Positions 50,366 through 64,000 of a stretch of 64,000 nt of DNA are shown one piece after another. Below the pieces are notes generated by a model. The model was not told the DNA's origin. It searched no databases and worked only from the letters and a program-made list of their open reading frames with translations. Each line of letters opens with the position of its first letter. The first letter of the stretch is position 1. This DNA is from a virus: positions 1 through 64,000 of IMG/VR virus record IMGVR_UViG_3300048904_000202. One strand, written 5' to 3'. Both the position numbers and the translations under genes were made by a program.

Positions 50366-50893
50366 ATGGTCAAGAAGGTTATTCTCGCTGCCACCGTGGC
50401 CGGCCTCGCGCTGACTGCTTCGGCCTGTAACCGGGCTCCCGCCTATGGTTACTACAACGACGGCTACTATGCCGGCGCAAACACGCAGGTCTGCACCGAT
50501 CGCGCCGGCCGCCGCGTCCCCGATATCAACTGCCAGCAGGCCTATTACGGCGGCGGCTACAATCCCTACCTCTGGTATTATGTCGGCGGCGGTTACCCCG
50601 TTCCCTATTACGGGACCGTGGTCCACGGCGGTACTTGGTCGCGTCCGTCGAACTTCCGCAGTTATGTCCGCGCACCGGCTCAAGCCAACGTGACCCGCTC
50701 GGTCGCCGTTTCGCGCGGCGGCCTCGGCTCGACCAGCCGCAGCTTCGCGCAGACCTATTCATCGCCGTCGCGCTCGTATTCGTCGAGCAGCTATTCGTCG
50801 CCGTCCCGATCCTACTCGTCGAGCAGCTATAGCTCGTCGCGTTCGTCGTTCAGCGGGGGCGGGCGCTCGTTCGGCGGGAGCGTCAGTTCGTGA
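50366..50893 (+). CDS. Ser/Tyr-rich lipoprotein, YgiB/DUF1190-like position
   Basis: 175 residues. Signal peptide with lipobox ASAC at Cys 21. Then a Gly/Tyr-rich domain (GYYNDGYYAGANTQVC) and a C-terminal tail of Ser-Tyr repeats (SYSSSSYSSPSRSYSSSS). It is GTGA-coupled to a YgiC-like ATP-grasp gene, as YgiB is in bacterial ygiBC operons. The sequence match to DUF1190 is weak; the pairing is the main argument. Confidence 0.6.
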   Translation: MVKKVILAATVAGLALTASACNRAPAYGYYNDGYYAGANTQVCTDRAGRRVPDINCQQAYYGGGYNPYLWYYVGGGYPVPYYGTVVHGGTWSRPSNFRSYVRAPAQANVTRSVAVSRGGLGSTSRSFAQTYSSPSRSYSSSSYSSPSRSYSSSSYSSSRSSFSGGGRSFGGSVSS

Positions 50894-52041
50894 AGCGCAT
50901 CCAGACCACCCCGCGTACTGACTGGCAGGCCCGTATTCGTGATGCGGGGATGGTCTGGGCAGGCGCTGACACCGGCGGCTGGAATGAGTCCGCCTATTAC
51001 TCCTTCACCAATGAGGACATCGAGCGGATCGGCGAAGCCACCGCCGACCTCTATCGGCTGTTCATCCATTGCGGCGACGCAATGCTGGACTACCGCGACT
51101 TCTACTGGCTGCGTCAGATGGGGATGCCCGAGTGGCTGTTCCCCTATCTCAAGGCGGCGTGGGACGCGGAACCACCGGCTCTCAATTTCGGTCGCTTCGA
51201 TCTCGGGTTCGACGGTCGCAATGACCCGAAGCTGTTCGAGTTCAACTGCGACACGCCCGGCAGCCTGATCGAGGCATCGTTGGCGCAAGCGATCTGGCGC
51301 GAGGACCTGTTCCCGCGCGGTGACCAGTTCAACGGTATCAACCGGGCGCTCGTGTCGCGCTGGGCCGACCTTCGCACCTCGTTCTACGGTCGCACCTTCC
51401 ACATGACGCACGTCTTCGACGAGGACGGCGAGGACACAGCCATCACCAACTATCTGGCCGAGACCGCTCGCATGGCTGGTCTCGATCCCATGATGGTGGT
51501 GATCGACGACATCGGTCAGGACGAGGAAGGTCGCTTCGTTGACGCCGACGACATCCTCATGGACGTGGTGTACAAGCACTACCCGTGGGAGTGGATCGTC
51601 CGTGAAGAATACGGCCGCGCCATCGTCGAGCAGTCCTCGGACCCGATGCTATGGATCGAGCCGATCTGGAAGATGCTCTGGTCGAACAAGGGAATCCTCG
51701 TCGTCGCCAAGGCGCTGGAGCCCGAGAACCCTTACCTGCTTAACGCCAGCTTCGGGGATACCGGCGCGAAGGACTTCGTGAAGAAGCCCATCTTCTCGCG
51801 ACGTGGTGAGAACATCGAGATCGTAGATCAGCGCCAGACCAGCGCGCGGTCCACCGGCGGCTACGGTGCCGAGGGCTTCGTCTATCAGGAGAAGTTCGAT
51901 CTCCCCGAGATGGCTCCCGGCATCTTCCCGGTGATCGACTCGTGGATCGTCGGCGGCGTCGCAGTCGGCATGGGTGTCCGCGAAGGCGGCCTCATCACAG
52001 ACAGTTCGGCGGCTTTCGTCCCTCACATTATCGAGGGGTGA
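50890..52041 (+). CDS. Glutathionylspermidine synthase-like ATP-grasp enzyme (YgiC-like)
   Basis: 383 residues, GTG start. The pre-ATP-grasp fold and ATP site are suggested by FGRFDLGFDGRNDPKLFEFN (the family's FD-f-...-kl-E-N segment), DTPGSLIEASLAQ, SNKGILVVAKAL and KPIFSRRGENIEI. The family forms amide bonds between a peptide and an amine, but YgiC itself has no proven substrate. It lies between the lipoprotein and, further on, a potassium channel. Confidence 0.85.
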   Translation: MKRIQTTPRTDWQARIRDAGMVWAGADTGGWNESAYYSFTNEDIERIGEATADLYRLFIHCGDAMLDYRDFYWLRQMGMPEWLFPYLKAAWDAEPPALNFGRFDLGFDGRNDPKLFEFNCDTPGSLIEASLAQAIWREDLFPRGDQFNGINRALVSRWADLRTSFYGRTFHMTHVFDEDGEDTAITNYLAETARMAGLDPMMVVIDDIGQDEEGRFVDADDILMDVVYKHYPWEWIVREEYGRAIVEQSSDPMLWIEPIWKMLWSNKGILVVAKALEPENPYLLNASFGDTGAKDFVKKPIFSRRGENIEIVDQRQTSARSTGGYGAEGFVYQEKFDLPEMAPGIFPVIDSWIVGGVAVGMGVREGGLITDSSAAFVPHIIEG

Positions 52042-62602: not shown

Positions 62603-62739
62603 GACTCAACACCGAGGGCAATGCTTCCGCTGCGTTCTTGGTTAGCGCCGTTCAGGTGGGTCACTGGACCCTTAAAGGCATGACCATCCATCACATCTGT
62701 GATGGTCCGCCGCCTGAGTGGAGCGACAAGTGATTACCG

Positions 62740-62844
62740 ATCACTGGCGATCGGGATAGATGGTAACGGGCGCCCGCTTTCTCCCCTTGGGCCGGCGCAC
62801 GGTGTTTCTAGGGCTTCGAGCCGTCTATCTCGGTCGCCAGTGAT
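62740..62844 (+). ncRNA. Structured RNA element with 24-bp stem
   Basis: Bases 62740-62763 and 62821-62844 pair over 24 consecutive positions, with three G-U pairs, enclosing 57 bases. The motif CGCCAGTGATG recurs at 62835 and 62953. Not matched to a known RNA; located just upstream of the tmRNA acceptor piece. Region 62603-62739 shows one further hairpin (CCATCAC/GTGATGG) but no gene. Confidence 0.55.
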
Positions 62845-62944
62845 GTTCACTTGCGATGCGGCAGGCCTTGCCGACCGTGGAGGTCGGTTGGTCAACACTA
62901 GGCCGGCGAGGCAGGGAGTAGTGTCCCGGCAACGAGCTTTGGTC

Positions 62945-63034
62945 TGCCCCATCGCCAGTGATGGCGAGATGATCGTAATTCGGACGATCGAAGTTTTGGC
63001 TCGGACGCGGGGGCGGTTCCCGCCGGTTCCACCA
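62945..63034 (+). ncRNA. ssrA: Permuted tmRNA, acceptor piece
   Basis: The 3' part of tmRNA lies upstream of the 5' part. It ends CGGTTCC-A-CCA at 63034; CGGTTCC pairs with all seven bases GGGGCCG that begin the coding piece, including the G3-U70 alanine identity pair. The T-arm stem is GCGGG/CCCGC but the loop is GGCGGTT instead of TTCRANY. TCGGACGCGGG before it matches the usual 3' region of tmRNAs. The 5' end of the piece is approximate. Confidence 0.75.
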
Positions 63035-63123
63035 CGAGCCCCGATATTACTGCCACTAGGGGCGACCTACCGCTCCGAAGAGGCGCGGAGTTATCGGCCG
63101 CGCTCTGTGTTCGGGGTTGATGA
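63035..63123 (+). ncRNA. tmRNA intervening segment
   Basis: The 89 bases between the CCA of the acceptor piece and the GGGG start of the coding piece correspond to the excised segment of a two-piece tmRNA. No other feature was seen in it. Confidence 0.6.
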
Positions 63124-63300
63124 TGGGGCCGAAGTAGGATTCGACGGGCAAGGCGGAGGTTAGGACGCGATCTAGCATGACCGACTACGCTTCGGCGAGA
63201 CAGGTCACCGTTTGTAAATGCGAACGACAACACTCCGGTGGTTGTCGCCCGCGACGAGGTTCGCCTCGCCGCGTAAGCGATAACTCTCAGCCTCCGGACT
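63124..63300 (+). ncRNA. ssrA: Permuted tmRNA, coding piece with proteolysis tag
   Basis: Begins GGGGCCGAAGTA followed by the tmRNA signature GGATTCGACGGG (63136-63147). The resume codon GCG at 63220 opens the tag ANDNTPVVVARDEVRLAA, ending in TAA at 63274-63276. The ANDN start and small hydrophobic LAA end are classic ssrA features. A hairpin (CTCAG/CTGAG) follows. The 3' end of the piece is approximate. It would rescue stalled ribosomes with a phage-specific, unusually long 18-residue tag. Confidence 0.85.
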
Positions 63301-63351
63301 GAGAAAAGGGGCTCGGGGCCAGCCTTGCAACAGAATGGCCCCACGAGATTT

Positions 63352-63430
63352 GAGGTAGCTGGAGGTCGCCGGTTCGAGTCCGGTCATCCCCTGATCCGGG
63401 ATGTAGCTCAGATGGTAGAGCGCCAGCGTA
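63352..63430 (+). tRNA. Candidate circularly permuted tRNA A (3' half before 5' half)
   Basis: 3' half: anticodon strand GCTGG (63358-63362), variable AGGTC, T arm GCCGG-TTCGAGT-CCGGT, acceptor CATCCCC ending 63391. 5' half: GGGATG (63398-63403), TA, D arm GCTC-AGATGGTA-GAGC, anticodon strand CCAGC (63423-63427). GGGATG pairs with CATCCC and CCAGC with GCTGG only in this reversed order. Six bases (TGATCC) separate the halves. The anticodon cannot be read with confidence and CCA is not encoded. Confidence 0.5.
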
Positions 63431-63508
63431 GGGGAGACACCGGTTCGACTCCGGTCCGGCTGTTGATCAGCAGCCGTTAGCTTAGAGGTAAAGCGCCTCG
63501 ATTTTGGG
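63430..63508 (+). tRNA. Candidate circularly permuted tRNA B (3' half before 5' half)
   Basis: 3' half: GGGG (63431-63434), AGAC, T arm ACCGG-TTCGACT-CCGGT (63439-63455), acceptor CCGGCTG. 5' half: CAGCCGT (63471-63477), TA, D arm GCTT-AGAGGTA-AAGC, anticodon strand CCTCG (63496-63500) and loop ATTTTGG. CAGCCG pairs with CGGCTG and CCTC with GGGG. Eight bases (TTGATCAG) lie between the halves. The anticodon is unresolved. Confidence 0.5.
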
Positions 63509-63804
63509 ACGTGGTGAAACGATACATCCACATCTCCTTGAGCCGGCGAAAGCCTGACTGCCGGGAAAGTACGGTGAAGAGCAGTGCGGATGGAGGGCAC
63601 TTGATCTTCGGATCAAGTCCGGGCAACAGAAACCCTCCACTGGTTTCGGGCTTTCAGCCCAGACGAGATGGGGTGGCAAGACAGCGCCGGGTGCGTCCGG
63701 CGTGGCACGCACGCTAAGGCTGATGCTGATGTGTCTTGGGACCATCCCACCTATTTGCCGGGAGCAGGTTTGTGTCTCCCAATACAAAGTGATCCCGGCG
63801 GGTT
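63509..63804 (+). ncRNA. Structured 3' part of the RNA unit, no gene seen
   Basis: About 300 bases with several hairpins: GGC-GAAA-GCC near 63543, ACTTGATC-TTCG-GATCAAGT (63600-63619) nested in GGAGGG/CCCTCC, and GCCGG/CCGGC pairs near 63690. There is no convincing ORF. It may be part of the processing of the permuted RNAs or an independent RNA; no known family was recognised. Confidence 0.5.
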
Positions 63805-63844
63805 AGGCCCGGTCGTTTTTCGGAACGACCGGGCCTTTCCTTTT
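63805..63844 (+). terminator. Terminator of the RNA unit
   Basis: A perfect 13-bp stem (63805-63817 with 63824-63836) with a TTTCGG loop, followed by TTCCTTTT. Confidence 0.92.
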
Positions 63845-63863
63845 GCGAAAGTGTTACTTTCGC

Positions 63864-63920: not shown

Positions 63921-64000
63921 ATGACCACGATCGCGTACCGTAGTGGCACCCTCGCTGCTGACTCTCAGATCGCTTACAGTAACTACCTGAACGGGCAACG
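63921..64000 (+). CDS. HslV/proteasome-beta-like protease, 3' end outside the window
   Basis: The 26 codons visible begin MTTIAYRSGTLAADSQ, the N-terminus of Ntn-hydrolase proteases in which Thr2 becomes the nucleophile after Met removal and the Ala-Asp follows 12 residues later. Phage versions are known. The rest lies beyond the window. It is controlled by the strong box-containing promoter at 63864. Confidence 0.6.
   Translation, partial: MTTIAYRSGTLAADSQIAYSNYLNGQ

Follow-up and report, generated by a model that had tools for sequence, protein, structure and literature searches.

tmRNA rescues ribosomes that have become stuck and marks the incomplete protein for degradation. In the two-piece form, according to the work of Keiler and Williams as relayed in PMC9004378 and PMC11915505, tRNA-processing enzymes divide the precursor into two parts, an acceptor piece and a coding piece, which are base-paired; alanine is attached, and SmpB and the charged tmRNA enter stalled ribosomes. 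Phage-encoded tmRNAs of this kind are already known, as those of Methylophilales phage Melnitz (PMC9004378) and of Sphingobium phage Lacusarx (reported in 2017, PMC5648845) have been published. Of the 133 distinct phage tmRNAs in a 2022 survey by ARAGORN, 53 were of the two-piece form (PMC9004378), and the 2025 tmRNA database includes 79 bacteriophage sequences (PMC11915505). Any impression of rarity that a sequence-only reading of the locus described here might give is therefore overstated.

The window, which is the whole stretch of 64,000 nucleotides that was analysed, belongs to a virus record of 164,476 bp. This record represents a phage related to Lacusarx and to the Erythrobacter phages XM05 and vB_EliS-L02 (hereafter L02). 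The carrier is a large virus of sphingomonad-like bacteria; its long reading frames include a phage DNA polymerase, a ribonucleotide reductase, an NAD-dependent ligase, a helicase, and a DNA-transfer protein. Host contamination was rejected because phage genes are present throughout the contig and because the contig has phage relatives. The phage also carries 26 ordinary tRNA genes, of which 25 encode CCA. A glutathionylspermidine-synthase-like gene (phrog_6215) is located between the two tRNA clusters, at positions 50890-52041 of the window.

Identification of the permuted tmRNA gene

ARAGORN called a permuted tmRNA with the tag ANDNTPVVVARDEVRLAA at 62942-63367, which is the sole tmRNA gene of the window. 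In a cmscan search at gathering thresholds, RF01849 (alpha_tmRNA) matched positions 62952-63344 with 76.7 bits (E 4.4e-19, cut-off 50 bits) and RF04321 (tmRNA_permuted) matched positions 62971-63276 with 82.1 bits (E 3.5e-14, cut-off 47 bits). The gene had been proposed, from its letters, to be a phage-encoded, two-piece tmRNA of the alphaproteobacterial kind, and a score below threshold had been named as counting against this. As both models exceed their cut-offs, that objection does not apply, and the proposal holds on both points. The E-values, together with ten homologues showing compensatory changes, rule out a chance match.

The gene lies on the plus strand, with the acceptor piece upstream of the coding piece. 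The acceptor piece (62942-63034) was delimited by ARAGORN with an approximate 5' end, the matches of RF01849 and RF04321 starting at 62952 and 62971, respectively, and it ends in an encoded CCA. It includes the sequence GATCG (62971-62975), which forms the 5' strand of the helix joining both pieces; the 3' strand, CGATC (63168-63172), is found in the coding piece, and both strands fall in paired columns of RF04321 and RF01849. The T arm, GCGGG-GGCGGTT-CCCGC (63007-63023), forms five of five pairs. It is followed by the acceptor 3' strand (63024-63034), which comprises CGGTTCC at 63024-63030, A73 at 63031, and CCA at 63032-63034. As had been read from the sequence, this strand forms seven of seven pairs with GGGGCCG (63125-63131), including G3-U70, beside which G4-U69 is a second wobble. 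The 90-nt intervening segment between CCA and G1 (63035-63124), which measures 65-94 nt across 11 phages, is expected to be removed during maturation.

The 5' end of the coding piece (63125-63152) comprises the acceptor 5' strand and the D-loop region with the motif GGATTCGACGG, a putative SmpB site, and corresponds to the 5' tRNA domain of ARAGORN. This piece had been placed at 63124, which is off by one, since GGGGCCG starts at 63125. The tag reading frame (63220-63276) consists of 18 codons followed by TAA, with GCG as the resume codon, and ends in small hydrophobic residues; the frame proposed earlier is the same as that called by ARAGORN, and ten other phages have homologous tags. The coding piece also extends further than had been recognised: its 3' part, with the conserved segment GCAACAGAA, covers 63277-63344, where RF01849 matches up to model position 354/355, and ARAGORN extends it to 63367. 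The tmRNA gene of the window is real, well delimited, and conserved.

Upstream of the tmRNA, a long inverted repeat (ATCACTGGCGA... / ...TCGCCAGTGAT) is present at 62738-62855 of the window, and the sequence CGCCAGTGAT from this region recurs at about 62951.

Conservation in phages and comparison with bacterial tmRNAs

The permuted tmRNA is also located after the tRNA array in Lacusarx, L02, XM05, and the IMG/VR relatives L013-L023. It is annotated as ssrA in Lacusarx (GenBank KY629563) and is unannotated in the two Erythrobacter phages. In L02 (OL955261), it was found by ARAGORN (L003:3954-4362); in XM05 (PV416404), it is missed by ARAGORN but obtains 99.9 bits with Rfam (L004:1756-2118). In XM05, the 3' part of the tmRNA is overlapped by a gene for a predicted protein that lies on the other strand (L004:2051-2188). 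A permuted tmRNA is also present in Mesorhizobium phage Cp1R7A-A1, and no plasmid relatives of the tmRNA were found.

Conservation was assessed on 11 phage tmRNAs, namely that of the window and ten homologues. The acceptor stem is fully paired (7/7) in all 11, with five different stem sequences and G3-U70 throughout, and the T stem is likewise fully paired (5/5) in all 11, with four different stem sequences; ACCA is encoded in every one of them. These compensatory changes indicate selection on the structure of the tmRNA. The tags, which are 13-18 aa long in this set, are similar in sequence. Over the last 12 tag codons, the window and L02 differ by four synonymous changes and no amino-acid change, which indicates that the peptide is under selection, although the number of sites is small. 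Based on the compensatory changes and the conserved tag, we rejected the reading of this gene as a pseudogene.

Permuted tmRNAs above the cut-off are carried by 174 of the 190 sampled alphaproteobacterial genomes. With 82 bits, the tmRNA of the window scores well below most of the alphaproteobacterial matches listed, which range from approximately 124 to 166 bits, so some loss of fit to host factors is possible. The tag had been considered to be long and the phage's own. Its length stands out against the 10-15 aa of the 28 alphaproteobacterial tmRNAs whose tags were read, but related phages share this feature. The bacterial tag most similar to that of the phage is ANDNAVVTQRQALAA (L059). In a tree with bacterial tmRNAs, which is based on a short alignment with long branches and on the best-scoring bacterial loci, all phage tmRNAs are found on one side of a branch with a support of 100/96. 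This argues against a recent capture of the tmRNA from a host.

RNA cassette and neighbouring genes

Downstream of the tmRNA, two modules in tandem on the plus strand exhibit a circularly permuted tRNA-like architecture of the YrlA type, with a closing stem, a T arm, an acceptor-like hairpin, and a D arm. In module A (63358-63427), the closing stem forms five of five pairs and the acceptor six of seven Watson-Crick pairs. In module B (63431-63499), the acceptor also shows six of seven Watson-Crick pairs, and the closing stem is fully paired (4/4) with one G-U. As a chance level, 7 of 600 pairings of unrelated acceptor strands, taken from the phage's own tRNAs, reached six of seven Watson-Crick pairs. 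Neither module encodes CCA, TGATC and TTGATCAG standing in its place. The YrlA model RF02553 gave 38.1 bits for module A (63360-63425) and 23.4 bits for module B (63432-63497), both below its cut-off of 69 bits. Free folding of 63345-63530 is no better than that of shuffled sequences (z -1.29); the case for the modules is thus built on pairing within the tRNA-like scheme and not on free energy. No gene for the TROVE/Rsr partner (PF05731) was found in nine phage records, the control being detected in Deinobacterium; an Rsr supplied by the host is still conceivable. A pattern search of IMG/VR returned no closer relatives of the modules.

ARAGORN called no tRNA at the two modules, and we rejected their reading as ordinary tRNA genes because of the permuted order and the lack of encoded CCA. 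An ordinary tRNA at 63403-63456 (RF00005, 29.7 bits) was also rejected, as this hit combines the first portion of module A with the 3' portion of module B; its acceptor strands do not pair, whereas six of seven positions pair within each module. Modules A and B are likely to be YrlA-like tRNA mimics. We did not assign them to YrlA itself because of the scores below the cut-off, the absence of TROVE in the phages, and the lack of free-folding support. Six other phage contigs of IMG/VR (L117, L118, L133, L113, L096, and L110) carry apparently complete bacterial Y RNAs, in which a terminal stem encloses a permuted tRNA-like module; TTACTTC occurs close to the 5' side and TGTTC close to the 3' side.

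The modules are followed by a structured RNA without known family (63500-63804, plus strand), for which no credible match to RNase P RNA or any other Rfam family was obtained. The folding of the region 63500-63850 exceeds that of shuffled sequences by 5.4 standard deviations (z -5.4), and the position of the last hairpin is kept in eight relatives. An intrinsic terminator with a 14-pair stem (63805-63836, plus strand) closes the cassette. The last hairpin contains a GTCTCC motif; both this hairpin and the terminator after it are found at the corresponding position in eight related phages. Together, they show a weak likeness to RF02278, a toxic small RNA of Betaproteobacteria (24.5 bits, cut-off 50).

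In XM05 and in the IMG/VR relatives L013, L014, L017, and L018, a different RNA takes the place of the modules after the tmRNA (L018:2413-2619, L017:2434-2623, L013:2401-2609, L014:2401-2624, and, for XM05, L004:2120-2312). This RNA is closed by a long terminal stem (CATCTTTTTCGCCA/TGGCGAAAGAGATG) and contains two hairpins that resemble T loops, between which a further hairpin varies in sequence from phage to phage. The three examples tested (L018, L017, and L004) fold 3.7-5.3 standard deviations better than shuffled sequences. The reading with two T-loops is tentative because both T-like segments could pair with each other.

A gene for an HslV-family (Ntn-hydrolase-like) peptidase of 146 aa (phrog_1040, E 1.2e-32) starts at 63921 on the plus strand and continues beyond the end of the window at 64000 to approximately 64361 of the contig. 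Its product is 57 and 61% identical to the proteins of L02 and XM05, respectively, and the Erythrobacter-type phages have such a gene within about 1 kb after the tmRNA. Brevundimonas nasdae (L050) is the only bacterium for which a genome contig with a relative of this protein was found (41% identity), and this contig may be a prophage. A gene for an RtcB RNA ligase (L049, contig 68043-69224) follows the hslV-like gene at a distance of about 4 kb.

Taken as a whole, the tmRNA could be the first part of a longer RNA cassette, reaching to the terminator at 63836, which would also produce tandem permuted tRNA mimics that act without Rsr. These might serve as decoys for anticodon nucleases or other tRNA-handling enzymes, or might be circularised or joined by the phage RtcB. 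We regard this as a speculative and rather unlikely reading; if true, it would represent a combined translation-protection locus that has not been described before.

Proposed function of the phage tmRNA

No SmpB, SspB, or AAA_2 (Clp/HslU-type) unfoldase was found in nine phage records, the positive controls being detected; the host would therefore have to supply charging, delivery, and proteolysis. It is highly probable that the phage carries a working gene for a two-piece tmRNA of the alphaproteobacterial type, the likely use of which is to sustain ribosome rescue late in infection. By analogy with known tmRNAs, we infer its processing, charging, use of SmpB, and role in degradation as follows. 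The precursor would be transcribed with the acceptor piece first, and host tRNA-processing enzymes would excise the 90-nt intervening segment, such that the acceptor piece ending in CCA at 63034 could base-pair with the coding piece starting at G63125. The host AlaRS would charge this RNA through recognition of G3-U70, and the host SmpB and EF-Tu would bring it to stalled ribosomes. The ribosome would then switch to the phage tag and release a protein ending in ...RDEVRLAA, which is predicted to be recognised by host Clp-type proteases. Together with the 26 tRNAs and RtcB, the phage tmRNA would probably maintain rescue at late stages of infection, when host RNAs are being turned over.

Other roles can be weighed against the same features. 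The phage tmRNAs diverge from the bacterial ones and none of the nine phage records encodes SmpB, as might be expected if the tmRNA acted mainly as an inhibitor or decoy that titrates the host SmpB and rescue factors instead of supporting productive tagging; such a role has been suggested for mycobacteriophage DS6A, whose tmRNA-like RNA has no tag (PMC4131195, PMC11915505). However, a full tag frame is similar in the 11 phages, and only synonymous changes separate the window from L02 over the last 12 codons. As a decoy would need no conserved peptide, this role is less likely, and we consider it improbable. The presence of rtcB in all nine phage records searched, beside many tRNAs and the tRNA-like modules, is consistent with counter-measures against RNA damage. 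In this context, the tmRNA might resist or replace a host tmRNA cut by an anti-phage ribonuclease, or clear ribosomes stalled by mRNA-cutting toxins. Escape from host defence may be a role of this tmRNA; the sequence-only reading had suggested it as one possibility, besides a redirection of stalled-ribosome rescue. The same facts are explained by a general maintenance of rescue, and we judge the defence role unlikely.

The low model scores relative to most bacterial copies would also agree with a decaying, unused copy captured from a host and left, for instance, by integration at ssrA. This is very hard to reconcile with the compensatory changes that keep every acceptor and T-stem pair, with the conserved tag peptide and the synteny kept across phages, and with the grouping of the phage sequences, and we consider it extremely improbable. 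Sustained ribosome rescue remains the preferred function. The tRNA-like modules, rtcB, and the HslV-like gene beside the tmRNA suggest a phage region for keeping translation running, which makes the function of the phage tmRNA more approachable; it is the adjoining RNA cassette that most deserves further study. Since the tag is conserved as a peptide, and since XM05, L02, and Lacusarx have hosts that can be grown in culture, phage-directed tagging is accessible to mass spectrometry.

Comparison with known systems

The tmRNA of the window shares with the alphaproteobacterial two-piece tmRNAs (RF01849, RF04321) the gene order, the acceptor G3-U70, the encoded CCA, and the T arm, as well as the GGATTCGAC motif and an ANDN... 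tag ending in AA. It differs from them in its longer tag (18 aa, compared with 10-15 aa among those sampled), its longer intervening segment (90 nt against 12-45 nt where this was measured in the sampled bacteria), its lower scores, and its location in a phage. With regard to bacterial Y RNAs, modules A and B exhibit the same order of closing stem, T arm, acceptor hairpin, and D arm as YrlA (RF02553). In contrast to YrlA, they score below the cut-off, occur as two units in tandem, and have neither a recognisable Ro-binding terminal stem nor a phage Rsr/TROVE gene.

Among phages, the tmRNAs of Lacusarx, L02, and XM05 share with that of the window the place after the tRNA array, the permuted form, and tags of the VV...RLAA type, that of XM05 ending in MALAA. 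Their sequences differ, with 76-82% identity in parts only, and Lacusarx lacks an HslV-like gene beside its tmRNA. A further phage lineage, of the Lacusarx and Erythrobacter-phage type, is added to the small number in which a two-piece tmRNA is complete and has been maintained in evolution. Melnitz and the 53 distinct calls of the 2022 survey (PMC9004378) likewise represent phage-encoded permuted tmRNAs akin to the alphaproteobacterial ones. However, Melnitz is an OM43 myophage with a glutamine riboswitch, whereas the phage of the window is a relative of sphingomonad phages, and its tmRNA is followed by tRNA-like modules and an HslV-like gene.
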